Assembly (NCBI GenBank): GCA_001599715.1
Contig: BCHU01000003.1
Location: 1,054,001 to 1,118,000 of the forward strand
Length of the DNA stretch: 64,000 nucleotides
Source of the DNA: Phaeotremella fagi
Taxonomy: Eukaryota > Basidiomycota > Tremellomycetes > Tremellales > Phaeotremellaceae
Direction: 5' to 3'
The position numbers were made by a program, and so were the translations under genes. The notes below the pieces were generated by a model. It saw only the letters and a program-made list of their open reading frames with translations, was not told the origin of the DNA and searched no databases. Each line of letters opens with the position of its first letter. The stretch's first letter is position 1. Positions 3,074 through 44,740 of the stretch are shown one piece after another.

Positions 3074-4939
3074 ATGAAGTTCTTCAATCCAATTTTCGTC
3101 TTCCTATTACTATTACCACCTAGTGGTGCTCAGAGTACTTCTGTGATTTCGACTGCTACCTCATCCACCAATGTTCTCACAAGCTCTGGTTCAGCAACAG
3201 TTAACGTTTCCAGGTCTTCCACTGCATCAGCTACCTCTTCCATTGCAGCTGCTGCGACACCTGTACTGTCCATCTCTGGTCTGCCTATCGTCTACACACT
3301 CCCTGCTCTCAATGCATCTCATCGTTCGCTACGTCTTTCCCTACCAGCAACATCGCCACTCTATCTAACATTAAATATCCTATCATCTCAACAAGCCAAT
3401 TCAAGCTCCCTATTACTACCAACAACACTGATTTCGACAAGCTCGCCTGTCAATTTCGTACTAGGATCGCGGTCAACTTCAGATTATTCATCTGGGGGTG
3501 TCAGAAGTAGTTCATCTGGTGCCAATCTAAAAAGTCGTTCAGGCGTAACGTGGCTCGTCTCATGGGATAAAGGATTTGGGAATTGGACATGGACAGAAAA
3601 TGATGCTATCAGCTGCCAAATCCTGTTAGGTCTTGGAATGCTCACAGATGGATCTTTGGATTCCAGTGTTACAATCGGAGACACGAGTGTCGTCGTACAA
3701 ATCCAAGCGTCGAGTAATGGTATGTGTAAATCATTTTGCTTTCCCTAACGCTATGCAGCGCCAATCAGCACTATTTCTCCAGCTGGTCCTCTTTGGGGTG
3801 ATTCAACATCAAATTCAGCGTTAATATTTTCCCCGCTATTGGCTTCTCACAAGAATATTCAGCCATCCTATCCTAATTATACTTTACCTGGGCCGCAGTT
3901 GGTAATGTCAGCGTATGAAGCACCAACGTCGACCAGTTCTCTACCATCCACCTCTTCGGCAACTGTCAATAACCCAAGCTCTTTTAGTCCGCAGTCAAAT
4001 TTAACCCTCATCATTGTACCAACTACTTCATCGCCCACCAATGATGGGCTTGATCTGTCTCTTGCAAGTGTCAAGATGGCAAATATCTCCACCGGAGGCG
4101 TAGGTTCCAAGCAGAACATGTTGGTAAATGCAACAGTAATGCCGCAATGGAACTTAGTGGGTGGCCAGGAAGGTTATAGGAGTTCTTGGGTTATCGGTGG
4201 ACTTGTTCCGAGCACCAACTATACTGCTTGGGTGTTGGATGAGTCTAATAATCGATTGAGTCAGCCTATGTGGTTTGAAACAAAAGAAGGTGAGTTGGGA
4301 CCCATGAGTAGTTTTGGTTCTATACTTACCAACTATTGCCTGCCAGACTCTTTCGCTTGCACTCTGATGCTGCCGACTCCTGAATGTCCTTCGATAGCTT
4401 ACGCTACACCTTTACCTGCGAATGCGACTTCTCCCTTGTTGCCATTATCGATCTTGCCCCAAAACATAAGCGATACCATAACGTCGTCTTTGACAGCTTT
4501 TTCTACCTCACTATCATCGACACCATGTGGTAGAGATTTTTATTCTCATGTTACCAGCTGTCTGGATTGCTATTCCTCCTACAGAGATTGGCTCTGTAGA
4601 ACAGCTGTCCCAAGGTGTGCCTCGAATTCGACCGTGTCAATTGGAAATGTACCGTCTCCGTCAACCATCTACCGCAGCCAGGCAAATCCTCGAAATCAGA
4701 TATTCGCTTCTTCCTTTGTCTTTCCTTACACAGAGATGCTCCCATGTCTCAGCACATGTAATGCTGTTGACAGATCATGTCCAGTGACTTTAAATTTTAG
4801 ATGCCCAGTCAGAACCAAAAACGGGGGTAATAGCTATGGATTTTTGGGAGACGACGATGATCAGGGTGACGGCAGTTCTGATGGGGGAGAGGTCGCTAGT
4901 GATCAATGGGGTAACCGATGGTGCAATGGTCCTACTTGA
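3074..4939 (+). CDS. MID1: Mid1-like stretch-activated calcium channel subunit
   Basis: The protein begins with a signal peptide (MKFFNPIFVFLLLLPPSGAQ), then a Ser/Thr- and N-glycosylation-rich extracellular region. The C-terminal half carries the cysteine framework known from fungal Mid1: FACTLMLPTPECPSIAYA, then CGRDFYSHVTSCLDCYSSY, DWLCRTAVPRC, and later C-rich segments (PCLSTCNAVDRSCP). Mid1 works with the pore protein Cch1 in the plasma membrane to let calcium in under stress and during mating. Intron 1 is 39 nt (3720-3758) with a CTAAC branch. A second likely intron at 4289-4345 is 57 nt, a multiple of three, and contains no stop, so retention would add 19 residues. The ATG at 3074 is chosen over an upstream in-frame TTG. 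Confidence 0.85.
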
Positions 4940-6640
4940 CGAAGCGTCTTAGAAAAATATGGCTGCTGCGATTGTATTGAATATTCATGTTTAACGACCC
5001 AAATGACGCTTTTCAGGGAAGAAGATGTCAGAGTTTCATTTGTAACCCTTCAAATAATCTTCACGCATTATTGGAATGACCATGGAGCCCACTAACATTC
5101 AACGCTCTCGCTGATAGGAAATCCGTCGACGTTCTCCCACCGTCTTTAAATGGTTTCTTGTTTGGAATTCCAATTTCAATCAGCTTCTTTTCACTTGCAG
5201 TTTACAGAGCAAAAGCGAAGTGGCGGGTGGAGTTTTTCTCAAACGGACTGTGATCGACTGACTAGCTAGCTTTGTTGGGCAGAAAGATATTCAACTCCTC
5301 CAGTCAGTTCCAATCCAAAAGACACACTTGACTTGAACTCAAATCATTTTCCGACAAAAGCGTTTGCACAAAGTGTTTCATTTCTCCCGGTCTAGTTAAT
5401 AAAGATGCGTTATGCAGGAAATTTCCAAGGAGCAGACAGAAATCCCATTCGTACCACCTACTAGTCAAGAGGATAGATACATAGGTGGATGACATTCCAT
5501 CGAAAGCTGTAATGGATTCTAGTAATTTGAATTCTTGCAACAAATAATCACAGGGCGATTCCACAGTATGTTGAAAAGTAAAGCCGGATGCGCTTTTGAC
5601 CAACACTCAATGGGAAAGCCACTCGTGATTTCCATCTCTGACACGTTCGTCGGCAGTCAAACTGAAAAGCAACATCTGTTGCTCTGGGTGCTGCTCACAA
5701 ACACAGCGACAAAGTTGTGAAAGAAAAGATACTTACAAAATAAGAAAGTTTAACCCGTTGTTTCTTCAAAGATCTGTTGAGCCGACCCACGCTATCGTCA
5801 TGTCGACGAGTGACAAAGGTAAAATATATACCTTTCAGGGGACACAGATGTCACATTGACTGTTTAACTGAGAAGCTGACTGATTCCAAAACAAGGAAAG
5901 TCTGAACCAGCATGGAATTGTCTACAGGTAAAATCTCTATAATGAGCGAGGTGAGTTCGGATGCGCACGATTCAAAGCTTAATACACTCATTCTTAGTTC
6001 AGTATGTGGGGAGCGGGCAATCATGATTGACATTGCTATCTCTTTCCCTAAGATTCCTCCAATTGTTATCCCGTTACTTTCGTCATTGCATCCTATAAAT
6101 CATGAGGTAAAGACAACCTTCATAAGAATGTTAATCCCTCATACCAATTGCAATCAAGCCAGTATCTAGTCAAAGTCACTGGCAATTTTCCATCGATAAA
6201 GATCAAACGTGATCTGCTCTAGCTAATATTGTCTACCACGTTGGGGACCTAAGTTGAACACGATTCTTATTGCACTACTTAGCTCATAAGTCTAGAATGA
6301 GAGCTTACGAGCTCAAGATAGTGTCCCCTTCATGCGACGTGTCAGCCTAGATCTTCAACGACTTGATAGTTGTTTCACAATTCAAACCCTCTTAGTAAAC
6401 ATGGACATATTATAACTGAAAATAAACAACCTACTGCTTCTACTGCCCCAGAAGCTCAAGCTGAATTGGTGGTGGAAATACCAAGCAGGTTGATGAAGGG
6501 TTTGCCATCATCATTCAGCCACTTTCAGCCAAAATCCAATCAAATTTCTCAGCAGCTAGAAAAGCTTCACTCTTCTTAACCTATGGATCAGAGACTCCAT
6601 ATAGTGCCATATACGGTATCAGACATACTGTTCTCTTATA
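4940..6640. other. Gene-poor spacer
   Basis: No convincing gene. Small ATG-started ORFs such as the 85-codon one at 5912-6169 resemble nothing I recognise and lack clear splice context. The stretch joins the end of MID1 to the LTR nest and may hold old repeat debris. Confidence 0.4.
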
Positions 6641-6646
6641 GAGTGT

Positions 6647-7146
6647 GTTGGACTAAGTAATGATTCTTATGAAGATGAAGACCAAATCTCTTGATCTAGC
6701 TTAAATTAGATCAGCCGTGCATACTCCAACAGAATTGTTCAGGTTGAAGACGCTTGTTTGTTCTACCAGAAACAGGTAATTGAAGAGTTCGAGTGACAGA
6801 AGAGACATGACTAGAAGCTTGATATCAGAAAATGAGAACAACTTCGATATTCTATCATCTGCTCATTCTCAAGTCTTCATTGACTATTTGAGAACAAACA
6901 TATTATCATTCAAAAAGGGTATATAAAGGGCATTATTTCGATCTTTATCTCTCTTCTCTTCTTTTCTTTTCTTTCAGGATCAATTATACACTTCACTTCC
7001 ACTTCTTTTTTTCCACCCAACCATCCACCCTTTTTAGAATATAGTATACACAGTGGTTCATTCTATTGTACATCTGATATCTTATTTATATCAACATCAT
7101 CATTACCTTTGTCACCAACCTCAACCTACTGTAATGAATATGTAAC
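6647..7146 (+). repeat. Degenerate LTR copy (family A-like), A1
   Basis: This segment carries the family A landmarks in order: GGGTATATAAAGGGC near 6919, a pyrimidine-rich run (CTCTTCTCTTCTTTTC), AGGATCAATTATACACTTC, the ACCCAACCATCCACCC block, ATATAGTATACACAG, and CAACCTCAACCTACT. The right part of the family is missing after that block. No target duplication was found, so the ends are uncertain. Confidence 0.5.
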
Positions 7147-7157
7147 ACGGAATCAGA

Positions 7158-7651
7158 TGTCATGAACCGCTTTAGAATTGCTTAGTAATCATCCAGTTAA
7201 AGATTGGTAATACATATTGTGGCAAAAGTACAATAGGCATCTGCCTAATAGGCATTTGCTCGTGCCTAATAGGCATTTGCCTAATAGGCATATGCTCGTG
7301 CTCGTTTGACAAGGTATAAAAAGCGGATTTTAATTATCTTTATCTCTTCTTTCTTCTTTTCTTTTCTTTAACTTTGGATCTCACAAATAGAAGGTCTGAA
7401 CCCTTCACTTCTTCATCCCTACTCCTCTTCCCTTTCAGTTCATAGTCTTAGTACATAGTTTAGCTATCTACATATATCTAGTCATACATCGTATACATTT
7501 ATATTTAGTTAATACTATTTGCCACCCACATAGTAACATCCTTTTACTTTATATCTTATCCTAGTTCAACTCCTTCCTTCCAGCAAGTCAGCGATCCTCC
7601 CAAGTCCTATCCTAGTCCATCCAACCCTAGTCCCCACCCACCTGCGTGACA
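7158..7651 (+). repeat. Solo LTR, family B, copy B1
   Basis: The element starts TGTCATGAACC and ends CCTGCGTGACA, giving TG...CA ends. Identical 5-bp flanks TCAGA lie at 7153-7157 and 7652-7656, as expected for an LTR-retrotransposon target duplication. The inside has AAGGTATAAAAAGCGG at 7311-7326, then a pyrimidine-rich stretch. Upstream of the TATA box are three perfect copies of the palindrome TGCCTAATAGGCA (7242-7254, 7263-7275, 7278-7290). There is no coding capacity. Confidence 0.85.
7242..7290. repeat. Palindromic tandem array in B1 U3
   Basis: Three copies of TGCCTAATAGGCA (arms TGCCTA/TAGGCA around a single A) lie 15-21 bp apart, with a half copy just before at 7231-7240. They end about 20 bp upstream of the TATA-like core. 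The position suggests transcription-factor sites, which is an inference. Confidence 0.75.
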
Positions 7652-7673
7652 TCAGAATACTATCATCAGATTG

Positions 7674-7996
7674 GCGTAACATCATGCTTATTTCTCTCCT
7701 CAAATTGATACTTCTACATGCTGATGAAACTTCCGCTCAGATAGTGACAATTCTGCCATTCATAAGAAAGTTTCATACAACATTCTCGTTCAGACACATA
7801 TATAGGACACTGTTCTTACTTCTTTCATTTCTTTTTCCTTAAATCTGGATCTCACAACATAATTTTTGAAGTCTTTGTTCTTCATCCCTAACCTGTACCC
7901 CTTTTTAGTTCATAGTGTTTTACTCTTTGACTTATACTATTAAGTATACAGATCTTGTTTACATTGTAGTCATTCATATTTCATTAATAATATTTG
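7674..7996 (+). repeat. Left part of interrupted family B LTR, B2
   Basis: The sequence matches family B (ATCTGGATCTCACAA, TTCTTCATCCCTA, CTTTTTAGTTCATAG, then TTAATAATATTTG) and breaks exactly at the insertion of LTR A2. The outer left border is not sharply defined; no clean TG start or target duplication is seen. Confidence 0.6.
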
Positions 7997-8533
7997 TGTT
8001 ATGACCAGCCATAACACAAGTCCTAAGTAGGGGGATTATATAAAGTTGTAAAAGGAAGGATTACATAAAATGAACCGAAGTTCATTGAACCGAAGCTCAT
8101 TGAACCTAGAGTCATTAAATCTAAGTTCATTGAACCAAAGGTCATTGAACCAAAGCTCGTTTGCTAAGGTATAAAAAGCGGATTTTATTTATCTTTATCT
8201 CTTCTTTCTTCTTTTCTTTAAGGATCAATTAATCANTTCACATCTCCAGTNNANACTTCCACTTCTTTTATCCAACCCACCCATCCACCCTTTNGTATAT
8301 AGTTTACATAGTAGTTCATAGTATCATACATCTACTATCTCTCTTTACTCATACATCATCACCTTCATCATCAACCTCAGCCTACCGGATCCTTCTAGGT
8401 TAATCATCTATATCTTATATCAGTCGACCAACTTCACAAGTCTACGAGGTACCCTTCGTCAGTAGTATCCCAAGCTTAGTAAACATTATCAGTCGTACAC
8501 GTCTCTGCTTACCTCTAGGGACGAGTCCTGACA
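7997..8533 (+). repeat. Solo LTR, family A, copy A2, nested in B2
   Basis: It starts TGTTATGACC and ends GGGACGAGTCCTGACA. The 5-bp flanks are identical (ATTTG at 7992-7996 and 8534-8538), and removing the LTR plus one flank restores the family B sequence TAATATTTGCCACTTAG. Inside are a 15-bp tandem array (8081-8155), AAGGTATAAAAAGCGG at about 8166, the pyrimidine run, and five N bases (8236, 8251, 8252, 8254, 8294). Confidence 0.9.
8081..8155. repeat. 15-bp tandem array in A2 U3
   Basis: Five consecutive 15-bp units of the type TTCATTGAACCGAAG, with one to a few changes each, follow a partial unit at 8071-8080. The array ends just before the conserved TATA-like core, the same relative place as the B1 array, but the unit sequence is unrelated. 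Confidence 0.8.
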
Positions 8534-8538
8534 ATTTG

Positions 8539-8703
8539 CCACTTAGTATATCCTTTCATAGTCACATCTATTATTATACTGTTATACTATTCTATCGTAC
8601 TTTATTACTTTATCATCACCAGTCAACCTCAAGTTTTAATCCATCCAGCAAGTCAGTGACTGATTCCCTCTTAGTCCTAGTCGTGCTAAGTCCTAGCGTT
8701 ACA
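8539..8703 (+). repeat. Right part of interrupted family B LTR, B2
   Basis: It continues the family B sequence after the A2 insertion (GCCACTTAGTATATCC, CCAGCAAGTCAGTGAC) and ends in GCGTTACA, a variant of the family B terminus GCGTGACA. Confidence 0.6.
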
Positions 8704-8919
8704 CCTACCTAACTCTTCTAGGATATTTCTATATAACGGTTCAGACGTTCTATTCGTGAAATGAAAATACTTTAACGAAGAAGCAAGAGAAAAGATTCAT
8801 AGATATAGATAATTGACTTTATCTACCTATTTGACTTGATTGTTCTCTTGTGAAATCATCAATAATTGAAGGAAAGCGGGCATCTAACTCAAATATTGAC
8901 CTTTTGGAGCATCTTTTAC

Positions 8920-9070
8920 ATACACAATCACAATCCAGCAATCCAATCTTCTTAGTATATAGTCGACGTAGAACTTCATAGTGTTGTTGAACATCTACTG
9001 TATTTTTTACCTATATCACCGCACTCTTGTTCTCGCCTCCAAGTCACCGGATCTACTATTTTCCAGGCAT
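8920..9070 (+). repeat. Decayed family A LTR fragment
   Basis: Weak but ordered similarity to family A: CAATCCAGCAATCCAATC, TTAGTATATAGTCGACGTAG, TTCATAGTGTTGTTGAACATC, and a final CCAAGTCACCGGATCTAC. No ends or target duplication can be set. Confidence 0.4.
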
Positions 9071-9307
9071 TTATAATGATCATGATTTCACTAAGGGCGA
9101 AGTATATCCACTTAAAAACAATAAAACTTAATTACATATTTAGAATTATGAACATTATAATCGCAGTAGCATTACCACAGCTACTCTATTCTATAAAGTT
9201 TTATCTGTGACTGTCTAAATTAACTTTAGCGTACTAAGGTAAAAGTGCTATGGGTGGCAAACATCAAATTCATGGTAGGTTATTATTGGGATGACTGACT
9301 CACAGTC

Positions 9308-9843
9308 TGTCACGCAGGTGGGTGGGACTAGGGTTGCATGGACTAGGATAGGACTTGGGAGGATCTCTGACCTACTGGAAGGATGGATGGAGCTGACCCA
9401 AGATAAGATATGAAGTGAAAGGATGTTATTATGTGTGCATGGCAAACAGTAATAAAATAATATACAAGTAAATGTATCTACTGTAGATAGTTAGAATGTT
9501 CGCTAAGACGACAAGCTAGAAGGGAAGAGGAGTAGGGAGGAAGAAGTGAAGTGTTCAGACCTTCTATTTGTGCGATCCAGAGGTAAGAAAAAGAGATAAA
9601 GATCTAGAAATTACGCATAAAGACCTTAGCATACGTCTGATTGAACATTGTCCCTTTGGACAATGTCTTATGGATAACGTCTAATTGGACACTAACATTA
9701 TTTGCCAATAAATCAGTTCATGTAATGACCGTGCATAAATAGGCTGCAACGGTACCACTTGACCAAAAAGTACAATATTCCATCAACGGCATTTGATTGA
9801 AATCGTATACTAGTATTCGACAGGGTCGTAACAGATCATGACA
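9308..9843 (-). repeat. Solo LTR, family B, copy B3 (reverse)
   Basis: On the plus strand it starts TGTCACGCAGGTGGG and ends GATCATGACA, the reverse complement of the family B ends. The flanks are identical CAGTC (9303-9307 and 9844-9848). The U3 side holds a perfect hairpin sequence, CATTGTCC-CTTT-GGACAATG (9646-9665). No coding sequence. Confidence 0.85.
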
Positions 9844-9848
9844 CAGTC

Positions 9849-10182
9849 ATTGATTTGGGAATTCTAAAAAGTTGAAGCATTTGGTGTTTCTTCAGGATGG
9901 AGACTCCAAACGTTTATAAGTGCACTTTGATTCTTTGACTTATATAAGTGTACCTGAATCTCACCTACATTATTGTCAGTTATAATTAGTAAATAATTAA
10001 TGATATTTGCCACTCGGTATATCCATTTTCTCTTATTACATTACTATGATATTATTATTTTATCTTATTCAATTATTTATTATCATTTATCTGCCTCAAG
10101 TCTTAGTTCACCCAGCAAGTCATCTCCTTTTAGTCCTTAGTCCTTAGTCCTTAGTCCTAGGCCCCTAGTCCGCGGCGTGACA
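9849..10182 (+). repeat. Degenerate family B LTR, B4
   Basis: It carries family B blocks: AATTAATGATATTTGCCACTC, TATATCCATTTTC, CACCCAGCAAGTCATC, a short TAGTCCT tandem, and a terminal GCGGCGTGACA. The left end is eroded and no duplicate flank was found. Confidence 0.55.
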
Positions 10183-10586
10183 TGTTGTAAACGATTATAT
10201 GGCCATGAAAAACAAGCGAGATGGAATGAATCAATATAAGGTTGGGATTTTGTTATGACCAGGTCATAACCCACATACTAGAGAGTGGATTTCATAAGAC
10301 TTAGATGGGGGAATAAAAACGAATTCTCAATGATCAAACAACCATTGGCCATTCAATCATTGATTGATTCACCATTGATTGTCCAATCATGGAGCATATG
10401 AATCGTTAGACAAGGTATATAAAGCCGGATTATTTGGATCTTTATCTCTCTTCTCGTTTTTCTCCAAGGATCAATTAATCAGTTCATTTCCACTTTTGTT
10501 ATCCAACCCACCCATCCACCCCTTTAGTATGTAGTTTACATACTAGTTCATAGTCTTATTTGTACATACTATCTAATTCATCATCA

Positions 10587-11106
10587 TGTAAAGATACGGA
10601 TAGTTAACTAAATTACACATCATTTCAAGCTGCTTATCAAACAATATTTATTGGTTTATAGAATAGTATTCTAAAGAACTCATTCTAGAAACAATCTTCT
10701 GGAACAAACTTATTCTAGAAAAAGTAATCTAGAAGAGTATACTAGAAAAGTATTCTAGAAACATCTTCTAGAAGAAAACTTATTCTAGAAGAGTATTCTA
10801 GAAGAGAAATCACTCTTCTAGAAGGATTGTACAGACAAATATAAGGACAGGATATTTGACCGGTTCTTGTTCTTCCCCAGAGATCTTAAATATCAGTTCA
10901 TTTTAATCTTTCACCCAAATTCCACTTCTTTATACTTATACTTATTATTTAATCTTCATATACAGTATATTATAATATATTATTATTGCCGTCGATCAAT
11001 TCACAAGTCCACAGATTTCATCAGTTGTGATTCAAGCTTTTTAGTAAACCTTCATAGTCGTACACGTCTCTGTTGGATCTATCACCTCCAGGGACGAGTC
11101 CTGACA
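10587..11106 (+). repeat. LTR C1 nested in A3, with heat-shock-element array
   Basis: It starts TGTAAAGATACGG and ends CAGGGACGAGTCCTGACA. Identical flanks CATCA lie at 10582-10586 and 11107-11111, and excising it restores the family A sequence. The right end resembles family A but the left part differs. Its U3 contains repeated TTCTAGAA motifs (10683-10823), followed about 15 bp later by a TATA-like ATATAAGG. It has no protein-coding capacity. Confidence 0.85.
10683..10823. promoter_or_regulatory. Array of eight TTCnnGAA heat-shock elements
   Basis: Perfect TTCnnGAA matches start at 10683, 10697, 10713, 10753, 10766, 10783, 10796 and 10816; seven are TTCTAGAA and one TTCTGGAA. Further near matches (ATCTAGAA, ACTAGAA) lie between them. 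TTCnnGAA is the core dimer bound by heat shock factor (established). A functional role here is inferred from density and from the position just upstream of a TATA-like box. Confidence 0.6.
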
Positions 11107-11278
11107 CATCATCACCTTCATCATCAACCTCAACCTACCGGATCCTTTGAGGTTATATCTAATACCAGTCAACCAACTTCAAAAGTCTACAAGGTACCCT
11201 TAGTCAATTGTACCTCAAGCTTAATACACCTTATCGGTCGTACACGTCTCTGCTTACCTCTAGGGACGAGTTCTGACA

Positions 11279-12604
11279 TGAGGTCGACTGAGGTGGAGAT
11301 CTACAAACCAGACGCTTGACCAATGGCTACATACAACTCGTTAAATTATTTGGTGGACTTGAAGTCGAAGACAACCGACAGCTACCAGCCAATGTAGAAA
11401 GAGAATATCTGGCTTACGGTAGTTCTGCGCGATATAGTATTTGTTTTAGGAACGAAAATTTCATGCAGCAAAACGAAAAGTTGGCAACAAATACTTAGAG
11501 ACATAATTGTCCGAGGGTATAGATGACAATAATGATCAGCTAAATGCTGATGTAGGGGTTTTTGTTGAAGTCAAGTCGCTTAAAGAATGACTCGACTCTT
11601 CTTCTGAATTTATGGAGGCCAAGGGATTTCGAATGTTCGGAGTGCAGACAAAATCAAACTTCACAACAGAACTTGATTGCTTCCTCGCAATATTCCTAAC
11701 TCCCCTTGGACTGAAAGAATTGGAAACGTTGACTTGAGTATCCCTCTTACCAGAAAGAAACTTCGGACGACTTTAATCTCACATCCAGGTACGTTCAATC
11801 AATACTTCGAAAGCAGGGCTGGGAAGATTTATCAGAAGCCGCACAGCACGAAACGGACAACTTAGACGTAGTCAAATTTAGCACCAAGGCCTCCTTAGAC
11901 AGTACTACTTCTGGTGATCTCTCTCTTCGCAAGCAGAAATGAATCTGTTGGGGGGTTTGAGTTTGGAGAAAAGAAGAGAGATTGTAGACAAAACAGATGT
12001 ATCGTATGTTCTCCAGTATGCCACTTTTGGTTTCATCACCTACTGTCCTTCTTCCACCTCGCCAGTCGTTAAACGATTAGTGTCTGTCGGCGACCGTATG
12101 TGAATCTTCTTCGTCTTTTTTATTTCTATTCTTTTCAATTTTCACGACGAACCACTTCGGGGTTTCTTGATTCGCTTTTGCGGATCAGTTGAATAGCTAG
12201 AGAATTTCGAGCGAGGGGGAAGAAAACTGTGAAGACTCGTTTCCTCTTGGGAAACTTGCTGCTCTGAGTACTATGGTGAAGAACTCCCAACATAAGAGGA
12301 ACTGAATCTCAAAGGAGTCTTTTTATGCACAACTTCGTCATTAGAAGGTAAATGCCCGGCAGGAAACGTTCTTACAAGACATCGTTTCATCAAACTTTGC
12401 TTCTTCGTGCTGCATCCATCTGGCAAACATCTACTCAGGGAACTGACTACATAATCGAGTTGTAAATTCTGAGTACAGATACTATGGGACCTGCCCGCTG
12501 TCCCCAATCAAAATTTCATCCGTTGATTATTGGTGATTCAAACAGAACACTCTCGCAAAATTTTAATTATTTAGAAGAGGTTGTTAGGATTTGGCAAACA
12601 TTTC
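11279..12604. other. No supportable gene
   Basis: Between the last LTR and the LIM gene, only short ORFs (for example 11316-11498 and, on the minus strand, 12271-12507) are open. None resembles a known family or shows a convincing exon chain. Part of this is presumably the 3' UTR of the LIM gene. Confidence 0.4.
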
Positions 12605-14975
12605 CTAGCAGAAATTTCTAAGACCTTGATGATTTGTAGAATAATGAGACAAGGGTTTTCGAAGTAAGGATGGAGGGTTGGATTCTTTGTCTCTGCGGTC
12701 TGAATTCTTGGTCGAAATCTTTTCTTCCGATCTAGGTCTCGAGATGCCTGTAGGCTGGAGTCATTCTGTTAGTACGATCTACTGCTAGTACCTACCTTGC
12801 AATTCTGACACAACAGATAACCACTGTGCTCAGAAGCTACTCCGTTCATCATCTTGCCGCATCCCACGTCAGCAGTAAGGAGACCATCGGTTTTGATTCC
12901 ACATCGGAAACAATGTTTATGCCACGAGCTGCCTTCAGGTCCACGAACCCATTGAGTATCGTAAAGGTTGATGATTACTCGACATTGTTGACAATGTCTT
13001 TCAGTCATTTGTGGAAGTTTTGATGGGTGAACTGCCTTCGATGATTTAGGATCAATGTTCCCACTCGGTTTGTTCGATTTCGAAGCATCGCTTGATGATT
13101 GAATTTTTGTATTTCGAATTCGAGTACCACAAGCTTCGCACGTTAGACAATCCAAGTGAAAGACCTTGTTATCGACAATTGCAAGTGACTCGTGCCGACA
13201 ACTGACATCTGATTTGAAAGTTGGCTCTGGTCCTCGCATTCTATCGAATAGATAAGGTAAGGAAGGTTTCTGAACAGATTCAAATTTGGACCTCAAATCG
13301 GTTACTGTCCGTTTCTGGGTTTGTTAACTACGAAAAAGATCTCGTTTGAGTCGTTCCTCCTTCGCGGCTATGTCCCGGCGAGCTTTTTCTTGAATCCATT
13401 CTTGACCGCGATTAAGCTCCACAACGGTTTTGGCAAGCTCTTTTTCCTTGCGCTTCTCAACCTTTTCTTGATGCTTTCCTAGTTTCCTCAATGCTGTATC
13501 AACCGCTTGTCTTTCCATAGTGATTGAGTAATCGTTAAAATGGTTGAACTGCCGAATTCGATCTTGTACCTTGGGTGAAGAAAGGAAACTAGAGGAATTA
13601 CGTCCTGGGAGATCGGGTAAACACTTGTCATCAGCAGAAAACGAAGTTGAATGTTTCGATACTCGACACTTGACCGGTTCCGGAAGAGTAGTGGTAGGAG
13701 CTTGGCGAGTACGGTAATTCGACTGTAGATTTTCGTCGCGGACAGGATTCAGTCGTCCATTGGTAGAAGCACCCATAGGACCAGCTGTTCGAGAAATACC
13801 AGCTTTGGAGCTCAATGTAGATTGTAAAGTATTGAGAGACATGGGATCCCTTTCAGCACGCTGTCCAAGGCGTTTAACACTATCTTGGAGAGTCAAATCT
13901 CCTGGAGGACCATAACGAAAGTTCTTTGATTCAGTGGCTGAGGATTGACCTTCGGTTGCTTGCGAGTATATCGCATCAAAACATGATTCACAGGAGGGCT
14001 CTCCAGACGTCGGTAGTAAGACTCCAAAAGCGTCTTGACCATTGAAACCTGAGAGTGATCTTCCGCAACCTGTGACTCATTAGTGGTCTTCCACAGTTTA
14101 AGACCTACTGATACAATCGTAGCATTTACTGTGCCACTTTCGTGAATCCTTCCCTGTAATATGAACACCACCATTTCCTTCTTCCATTTCACCTAGGATC
14201 GGTGTCTTACAATTATGGCAATTGCCAAAGGAGAAGTATTGAGCATAGCAGCTTCTACATAGAGCATCTTCCTTGTTAACATTCCGGGCAGGTATAGCAC
14301 GACTTTCTATTAGCAATGACGGATGAGGAGACTTGCCTTGCAGGATACAGTTTGGTTCCTTGTTTCAAGTCGCAAGAGCAAATCTTGCATTGTGGATGAA
14401 TAATGTTTGGTTGTAAGACGGATCCGTAAACTGGTTGTCAGCTTGAAGCAAGTCAACAAAGCTTACCTCGAGCCAGCTCGGCGGTAGGTTTGGGACCAAC
14501 AGCAACATCGAAAGTATCCAGACTTTGAGATGTACACATTGAAGTTGGCGTCGAAGAGCAAACTTCTAGACGAGGACTTGGAAATGATTTAGAAATCGCG
14601 ATAGAGGATGGACGAGAACGGGAGAGGTGTTTTTCTTGAACTCCTGTGAGACTTTGACTGTTTGCAGACATAGATCTCTTGTGAAGATGTGATGGGTTGG
14701 TGGTCATGTATCTTTTGGTTGTTTGTCAGGTTTTTTACAGCATAAAACTCACCTCTTCGCCCATCGATCGGGGCTACCTGAAGCCTGACTTGGTGTCAAG
14801 TTGACTTCGATCGGAGAACCACGCTCTGTGTGACAATGGTTCAGTATGATATGAATGTAGATTGGTAAAGCCAATCAAAAAAGAGGACCTGCCTACCTAT
14901 CCCCTTTCCACTACATTTGTTACATTCAATGCCAATGTCTGAGACCGCATTTCCACAGAAATTACAAACGATCAT
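12605..14975 (-). CDS. LIM-domain protein with N-terminal zinc ribbon
   Basis: The protein starts MIVCNFCGNAVSDIGIECNK, a CxxC...CxxC ribbon, followed by a Ser-rich linker. The first LIM-like segment spans HPQCKICSCDLKQG to ALCRSCYAQYF. The second LIM has CHNC, HSKCYDCISC and CESC. A basic coiled stretch follows (KHQEKVEKRKEKELAK). The C-terminal LIM pair includes FHLDCLTCEAC, CQQC, WHKHCFRC and CQNC. The likely tail ends in GLRNFC. Introns are very short; one (14303-14336, 34 nt) appears to be GC-AG, and only that reading keeps the LIM frame. LIM domains bind protein partners, often at the cytoskeleton or in Rho signalling. The exact family member is not resolved. Confidence 0.75.
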
Positions 14976-43018: not shown

Positions 43019-44740
43019 ATGCGATTCTTCTCCTCACTCACTTCTGCTTCTTTGCTACTCCTCCCTCTCATCAATGCCTCACCAGTTCCTGCAACTGCAC
43101 CAGAGGTAGAAGACCGTACCCTCGGTCTTGGCCTTGGTCTACTCTTCCCCACTTGGTCGTGGCAGACTTGTGCCTACGTCCAAGGAAGTCTTAACAACGT
43201 TGACTACGACTTAGCATGTCTTTGTGGTAAGTCTGCTTCTCGTCAATTCTTGTGACCCCCAAAACTGACGAGGCGGTTTTGCCTACAGTCGGTTCCGCAC
43301 CAAGCATCTTCACTGCTAGTGTCGGTTTGGATTTCTTGCTCAACTGGTCAAAATCGCAATGTTCCTCCAAAGGAAAATCTTTCTACTATCCTCAAGGTTG
43401 TCAACCAACTTGTGACGGTAAAGGTGGTTACAGTTGTCCTAACGGTAAAGCTCTTGATGGAGTAAGTGTCACCTTCTGCCTATTGCGTTCTCAAGTACAG
43501 GACTGACTATGGACGTAGAGCTGTAACCAATGGTCTTCTTGTCCTAACGGTCAATGGATGAGCAGCGGTCACTGTTGTCCAACTGGTTCAGAATGGAACT
43601 CTGGTGTTTGGTAAGTTCACTCCGCTTCAAAACCCATCAATCCCATTCTTACACAGTAACAGCTGCCCAGTTGGTTCCACCGTCTCCAACGGTAAATGTC
43701 TCCCCAAATGTACCCCACCACCCCCACCAACCTGTGCCTCCGGTTCAAAATACTGTACTACGATGTGCTGTCGTAACGANATGAGCGAGTCTAATGGTAA
43801 ATGTGTCTGTCCATCNGGTCAAACCGACGATGGGANCAAGTGCTCGACCCCTCCACCNACCTGTGCCTCCGGTTCAAAATACTGTACTACGATGTGCTGT
43901 CGTAACGACATGAGCGAGTCTAATGGTAAATGTGTCTGTCCCTCTGGTCAAACCGACGATGGAACCAAGTGCTCAACTCCTCCACCAACCTGTTCAAGTG
44001 GATCTAAATGGTGTACTTCAATGTGCTGCAGAAACGACATGTCTGAATCAAACGGTAAATGCGTTTGCCCCTCCGGTCAAACCGACGATGGAACCAAGTG
44101 CTCAACTCCTCCACCAACCTGTTCAAGTGGATCTAAATGGTGCACCTCAATGTGCTGCAGAAACGACATGTCTGAATCAAACGGTAAATGTGTTTGCCCC
44201 TCAGGTCAAACCGATGACGGTACCAAGTGTTCNACNCCTCCACCAACCTGTTCAAGTGGATCTAAATGGTGTACCTCAATGTGCTGCCGAAACGACATGT
44301 CCGAATCTAACGGTAAATGTGTTTGCCCCTCAGGTCAGACCGATGACGGTACCAAGTGTTCCACTCCTCCACCAGCATGCGCAGCTGGTACCTCATGGTG
44401 TCAAACCAAATGTTGTCGTTCAGACATGACAGAGAGTAACGGTCAATGTGGTTGTGCATCAGGTTACAAAGATAACGGATCGAAATGTGTCATCAACACT
44501 CCAGCTCCACCAACTTGTCAATCAGGTTTCAGTTTCTGCAAATCCAAATGTTGCAGAGCCGATATGCTCGAAATCATCTTGGGCTCTTGTTCATGTGCTA
44601 CAGGTTGGAAGGATAACGGATCTAAATGTGTTAAACAATGTAATGGTTTGATTGTGAGTGATTTTAATCGACTGCCACGGATACATTGATCTGACTCTTC
44701 ATTCTCCTTTCAGAACATCTTCGGAATCTGTCTCTTGTAA
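43019..44740 (+). CDS. Secreted cysteine-rich protein with tandem 43-residue repeats
   Basis: Signal peptide MRFFSSLTSASLLLLPLINA, then a likely pro-region. The N-terminal domain (WQTCAYVQGSLNNVDYDLAC and KSQCSSKGKSFYYPQGCQPT) is followed by at least five repeats of about 43 residues (129 nt), each with CSSGSKWCTSMCCRNDMS, ESNGKCVCPSGQTDDGTKC and a TPPP spacer; repeats become divergent at the end (CQSGFSFCKSKCCRADML). Each unit has seven cysteines. The last exon adds NIFGICLL. I recognise no named family; a secreted, disulfide-rich surface protein or effector-like protein is inferred. Six N bases interrupt the repeats, so copy number may be wrong. Confidence 0.85.
43724..44380. repeat. 129-bp coding tandem repeat
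   Basis: Five nearly identical 129-bp units begin with CCACCAACCTGTDCC/TTCAAGTGG-type sequence; for example ccaccaacc recurs at 43982 and 44111. The units are more alike at DNA level than needed for the protein, which points to recent expansion or gene conversion. Confidence 0.8.

Follow-up and report, generated by a model that had tools for sequence, protein, structure and literature searches.

The array of TTCnnGAA motifs found in the 64-kb stretch of Phaeotremella fagi DNA analysed here, hereafter the window, lies in the U3 of a 520-bp solo LTR and was probably an upstream activating region that recruited host factors of the Hsf1/Skn7 type and thereby linked transcription of the parent element to stress. 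In this explanation the LTR would stem from an old family of LTR retrotransposons, recognised only as solo or broken LTRs, and each TTCTAGAA would be a two-unit inverted site of the kind recognised by HSF-family DNA-binding domains. At least eight in number, the sites follow one another at distances of mostly 13-20 bp, the last of them 14-15 bp short of the TATA; they would most likely have recruited several such factors at once, which would have tied the element to host stress signalling, possibly to heat. More widely, such LTRs would have kept a common body while their promoter arrays were exchanged or renewed.

Eight perfect TTCnnGAA motifs, seven of them TTCTAGAA and one TTCTGGAA, occur within 141 bp (10683-10823, forward strand), with TTCNNGAA starting at positions 10683, 10697 (TTCTGGAA), 10713, 10753, 10766, 10783, 10796 and 10816; the array, which also holds degenerate units, was identified by motif scan, shuffles and a tandem-repeat call. 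The TATA-like ATATAAGG follows on the same strand at 10839-10846, with a gap of 15 bp to the last motif. A sequence-only reading of the window had reported these eight motifs and their place directly upstream of a TATA-like box, and both observations were confirmed. In 5000 dinucleotide shuffles of the 520-bp LTR the motif count averaged 0.30 and never exceeded 3, so none reached eight. Over the entire window, TTCnnGAA matched 38 times against a shuffle mean of 34, so that only the clustering of the motifs is unusual; outside the array, no 141-bp stretch of the window beginning at a motif contains more than two. Tandem Repeats Finder (TRF) reports a repeat of period 13/14 bp at 10665-10803, with a copy number of 9.9 and 68% match. 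Since the array is thus a degenerate tandem repeat of 13-14 bp units, its eight motifs are related by duplication and are not independent events, and the flat chance estimate of 0.03 given earlier, which presumes independent sites, had to be abandoned as a p-value. The motif count reflects duplication of the unit and then retention of its core. Scans of the window against Rfam (at the gathering threshold) and for tRNAs returned no match. Elsewhere in the window, at 43754-44454, a 129-bp tandem repeat with about five copies possibly encodes a cysteine-rich repeat protein.

The LTR carrying the array, termed type A here after its TTCTAGAA units, occupies 10587-11106 on the forward strand, runs from TGTAAA to CTGACA and is flanked by the target-site duplication CATCA on the left (10582-10586, forward strand) and on the right (11107-11111, forward strand). 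The left CATCA lies inside a CATCATCA run, so the exact edge of the LTR is slightly uncertain and could be shifted; the first ~20 bases are unlike those of the other copies. When the flanks were joined without the insert, they aligned across the junction to all five LTRs compared, with 155-159 matches in 184-192 columns. TG..CA ends, a target-site duplication, an empty site in the relatives and the lack of an internal region were therefore all found, which identifies the element as a solo LTR that cannot mobilise by itself and bears out the earlier placement of the array in an LTR promoter region. The solo LTR interrupts an older LTR of another type, type E (about 10251-11278, forward strand, outer ends set by eye), for which no target duplication was seen. 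A further nest was observed at C12:960511 (L009), where the U5 of a type A LTR is interrupted by a type C LTR, as opposed to the window, where type A lies inside type E. Such nested insertions could give the relative order of activity of the types.

An intact element with a type A LTR was not recognised: around at least 25 LTR matches, about 1.5 kb on each side contained no internal region, in a search that decayed pieces may escape and in an assembly that may lack collapsed repeats. The integrase family PF00665 (rve) has one match in the genome, at C10:356622 (L045), which was rejected by eye as the integrase of an LTR element, as it resembles an exon-split gene or an integrase of the DNA-transposon type. 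Two genome matches were obtained for PF00078 (RVT_1), the strong one being an open frame at C3:356532 (C3:356300-357300, L073), which we take by eye to be a Ty3-like reverse transcriptase; none of the at least 76 LTR matches in the genome lies near it.

The genome surveyed comprises 22.6 Mb in 24 contigs, and the 520-bp LTR has at least 25 matches in it, many of which cover the shared U5 end only. Eight copies of the array zone were aligned: C3 (the window copy), C12, C15, C11, C10, C6, C2 and C9. The seven further copies are variably decayed and keep the array at the same position in the LTR, C10 without any perfect motif. The number of perfect TTCNNGAA per cut piece is eight in C3, seven in C12, four in C15, six in C11, none in C10 and three each in C6, C2 and C9, and sites with at most two mismatches from TTCTAGAA amount to 7 to 13 per copy, a few of them outside the array. 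A TATA was found by pattern in six of the eight copies, and in five of these six the last motif ends 14-15 bp upstream of it; in the C10 copy an overlapping match spoils the measurement of this distance. Pairs of TTCTAGAA spaced 4-24 bp apart are restricted to the family, as they occur at 13 places in the 22.6 Mb, all in type A copies on C3, C6, C11 and C12, compared with two places genome-wide for the reversed-pattern control.

The repeat period of 13/14 bp is also what would be seen if the array were a neutral minisatellite in which slippage, or template switching in the course of reverse transcription, had multiplied a 13-bp unit and whose resemblance to a heat shock element (HSE) is incidental. 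Compared with the TRF unit, 501 of 543 core positions and 290 of 408 spacer positions match within the arrays (52 core and 40 spacer positions that are deleted were set aside), and in each of the eight copies the core varies less than the spacer (p < 0.05), a result somewhat favoured by array ends that were set by the motifs. This uniformity, the constant end of the array 14-15 bp before the TATA in five of six copies, and the coincidence of the core with a known binding motif make a minisatellite improbable, even though unrelated tandem arrays occupy the same place in other LTRs and the copies decay without preference for the core, both of which would suit it. Between copies, the core is no better conserved than the spacer, with 389 of 1430 core cells and 438 of 1582 spacer cells differing, summed over pairs and with core and spacer columns defined by third-party copies. 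The test for selection on the core between copies is negative overall, the three third-copy comparisons giving p = 0.018, 0.55 and 0.13, the first of which is given no weight here. Because core and spacer are equal in this respect, nothing keeps the copies functional now. We read the two comparisons together as a core that stayed uniform during the life of the element and copies that decayed freely after insertion.

Judged strictly, the array is not a heat shock element; judged loosely, it is one. Exact three-unit elements (alternating nGAAn with a 5-bp pitch) are absent from the window copy and from seven of the eight copies, the one exact nGAAn triplet being in the C6 copy, and exact elements of the gap and step types, scored by the geometry of these two types, number zero in all eight. 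Triplets with one mismatch were observed 11 times in the eight copies as opposed to 13.8 expected (the sum of eight means from shuffled spacers); C3 has three against an expected 3.0, and C6 is higher with three against 1.4. Spacing between blocks is 13 bp in 20 of 56 cases, the commonest value, which is out of the 5-bp phase, and 51 of the 56 fall within 13-20 bp. Under a loose rule, applied without a control, which joins nGAAn units at most 5 bp apart, the longest chain reaches 13 units in C3 and 4-10 units in the other seven copies. A genome search for a perfect four-unit HSE gave seven forward matches and eight for the reversed control, and is therefore uninformative. The sequence-only reading had seen the architecture of an HSF-driven promoter in the array; this stands as far as the fit of the motif to HSF-family DNA binding and the presence of the array in seven more copies are concerned, but not for the canonical spacing, which seven of the eight copies lack. 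Its further proposal that heat switches on the parent element gains from the Hsf1- and Skn7-like genes of the host described below, yet the LTR is a solo LTR, no parent was recognised, and related LTRs carry other arrays. Since these arrays lie at the same position, an array there is a general feature of such LTRs and no heat signature by itself. An argument against the activating role is that in Brassicaceae elements nTTCnnGAAn alone is described as a non-functional proto-element, the duplication of which made the strong ONSEN element (PMC5059998).

Four HSF-type loci were found in the genome. One of them has a recognition helix of the Hsf1 type, and the recognition-helix piece matches solved HSF domains. 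The best-scoring named relatives of this Hsf1 are Tremellomycetes: the top one is from Tremellales sp. Uapishka_1 (52% identity over 90% of the query), and others are from Kwoniella (43-47%), Cryptococcus (40-56% over 43-86% of the query) and genera of the Trichosporonales. Another locus is presumably Skn7-like, as recognised by eye from its receiver domain. The promoters of HSP70-type genes, which we named BiP, SSA, SSB and SSC by eye, and that of HSP90 were scanned for HSE-like sites without shuffles. The BiP-type promoter has the strongest native site, TTCTAGAATATTGTAGAA, with four units and one mismatch, the SSA-type promoter has TTCTAGATAATTC and the HSP90 promoter GAACCTTCCAGTA, both with three units and one mismatch. 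Two three-unit sites with one mismatch precede the gene at L062, a four-unit site with two mismatches precedes the SSC-type gene, and no HSE-like site was found in the upstream scan of the SSB-type gene.

Within the explanation favoured here, for which the binding of Cryptococcus Hsf1 to nGAAn (PMC9477856) also speaks, the question of which factor and which signal were involved leads to two special cases. In the first, the array would have been a true heat promoter, on which Hsf1 trimers assembled at heat shock and switched the parent on, as is the case for ONSEN in Arabidopsis. The HSP70-type promoters of the host contain TTCTAGAA or TTCTAGAT inside longer HSE-like sites, TTCTAGAA is the Hsf1 motif of Candida (PMC11774045), the C3 array forms its 13-unit chain under the loose rule, and the Cryptococcus elements TCN3 and TCN12, which have putative HSEs in their LTRs, move at 37°C (PMC12810828). 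The near absence of exact three-unit elements, the complete absence of the gap and step types and the other arrays of the related LTRs count against it, so that we regard this case as a real possibility but a somewhat doubtful one. As far as the motifs go, heat control of the LTR is plausible.

In the second case, the protein using the array would have been a different member of the HSF type (Skn7 or a second Hsf), in response to oxidative, cell-wall or morphogenetic signals and not to heat. The Skn7-like locus recognised by eye agrees with this, and so does the central TA of the core, which matches the repeat unit at 0.92-0.93 compared with 0.88-0.97 for the outer core bases: a plain requirement for TTCnnGAA would not explain a centre as uniform as the outer core. 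However, such uniformity can also arise from duplication of the unit, and we consider this case rather unlikely. In Candida, the motif of Skn7 is TCTAGA (PMC11774045) and that of Sfl1 is TTCnnGAA (PMC11774045; PMC3744398). As the Candida motifs of Hsf1, Skn7 and Sfl1 all fit the array, several HSF-family proteins could be its user.

Related LTRs likewise carry tandem arrays just upstream of the TATA, which consist of other units, several of them palindromic. To survey them, 24 TATA sites were compared. One is that of the 520-bp LTR; the other 23 come from a pattern scan that required short R-side words and covered the window region and the LTR loci surveyed, a fraction of all LTRs in the genome. 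By eye, 22 of the 24 sites were sorted into types according to their arrays, two being left out, and several sites are near-identical and therefore non-independent. The types are A (TTCTAGAA units, three sites), B (AGGCATNTGCCT, three sites), C (TGAACCNAAGTTCAT, four sites), D (GTCCAATCAGACATT, two sites), E (CAATCATTGATTG, four sites), F (AGGCAGAAG, three sites), G (CTGTANNTACAG, one site) and H (TTAGAAGCTCG, two sites). Four of the other types are present in the window, all on the forward strand: the type E U3 array with CAATCATTGATTG-like units at approximately 10327-10391 (TATA at 10416), the type C U3 array with TGAACCNAAGTTCAT units of 15 bp at 8071-8155 (TATA at 8170), the type B U3 array with AGGCATNTGCCT units at 7232-7301 (TATA at 7315), and the type H U3 zone with TTAGAAGCTCG-like units at approximately 6770-6880 (TATA at 6920). 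In this type H copy the repeat excess is not significant, as it was reached by 60 of 200 shuffles.

At 13 of the 24 sites, all of types A-E, none of 200 shuffles reached the number of repeated 7-mers seen in the 150 bp before the TATA; for the 150-bp R side this holds at one of 24, namely that of the 520-bp LTR. At the best site of F one of 200 shuffles reached the observed value, at that of G 16 and at that of H one, which makes these the weaker types, A-E being clear. An excess of palindromes (reached by at most 10 of 200 shuffles) was found in 11 of 24 U3s and in 3 of 24 R sides. Similarity was measured with local scores and a shuffled null; a pairwise identity that ignores gaps was dropped, as shuffled U3s already reached 0.80. 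Among types B-H, 150 of 151 cross-type pairs lie above 99.9% of the null on the R side and 14 of 151 in the U3, where low similarity is partly by construction, since the arrays themselves defined the types. What is informative is that the R sides are strongly alike where the arrays differ. The two type D sites share the array (score 44) and have less similar R sides (33), a contrast that hints at array exchange. Type A is more distant, with 1 of 57 pairs with other types above the null on the R side and 0 of 57 in the U3, and shares only the U5 end with them.

A tandem array before the TATA is thus a common property of these LTRs, and the type A array, the only one that looks HSF-like, is one promoter module among several that these LTRs carry. 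Related LTR bodies were found with non-homologous U3 regulatory regions, which is the pattern of modular U3 evolution known from Tnt1. As a more tentative proposal, the LTR superfamily might repeatedly have swapped the tandem array of transcription-factor sites that precedes its common core promoter, and each subfamily would in this way have come under its own host regulator; the version wired to HSF would then be the TTCTAGAA array, a fungal counterpart of ONSEN built from repeated two-unit sites, an idea about which we are doubtful.

The at least 76 LTR matches, several of which may share one LTR, are distributed over contigs C1-C15, and 12 of the 15 contigs have just one cluster each. In the window, the cluster is bounded by stop-to-stop frames of at least 120 codons, one ending at 4939 and the next starting at 12769, which leaves about 7.8 kb; the LTR zone itself contains one frame of this minimum length (10822-11319). 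In Kwoniella, the median centromere size is 6.7 kb, and the LTRs of both Kwoniella and Cryptococcus are mostly located in centromeres (PMC11185503). On account of the single clusters and of this size and location, the LTR nest at 4940-12768 is a candidate for a short centromere made of LTR remnants. It resembles the centromeres of Kwoniella and C. deuterogattii, which are likewise short regions with LTR remnants (PMC11185503). Two Piwi-bearing loci in the genome suggest that Argonaute was not lost.

The closest known systems are TCN3 and TCN12 of Cryptococcus, which are mobile in a temperature-dependent manner and have putative HSEs in their LTRs, two in TCN3 and one in TCN12; these HSEs were proposed as one cause of temperature-dependent transposition in Cryptococcus, and the same source states that heat-shock-induced activation of transposons via the host machinery is as yet undescribed in fungi (PMC12810828). 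Like type A, they are LTR elements of a tremellalean genus, and TCN3 shows 5-bp target duplications and solo LTRs. Compared by description, they differ from type A in being mobile (PMC12810828), whereas type A was recognised as solo or broken LTRs only, in which as many as eight perfect two-unit sites form a tandem array. ONSEN/COPIA78 and other heat-responsive COPIA elements of Brassicaceae share nTTCnnGAAn in the LTR and the duplication of a proto-element. However, the strong ONSEN element is of the 4P type (four nGAAn), with HSF binding and heat response demonstrated (PMC3907296; PMC5059998), whereas type A has separated pairs and its HSF binding and heat response are putative. In the Tnt1 superfamily of Solanaceae, evolution is modular, and most of the difference between related elements lies in the regulatory part of the U3 (PMC1838419); here, by contrast, what varies is a tandem array of short units, palindromic in several types, in remnants from one fungal genome. 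Putative HSEs in the LTRs of TCN3 and TCN12 (PMC12810828) and the modular evolution of U3 in Tnt1 (PMC1838419) are therefore already known. New, relative to a body of literature that contained few subscription papers, are the many tandem two-unit sites in a fossil family and their place within a set of alternative arrays. Retained in several copies of the LTR, the dense array of HSF-like sites provides a clean test sequence, and the occurrence of alternative arrays in one genome offers a direct route to asking whether retrotransposons diversify by switching the host factor that drives them.
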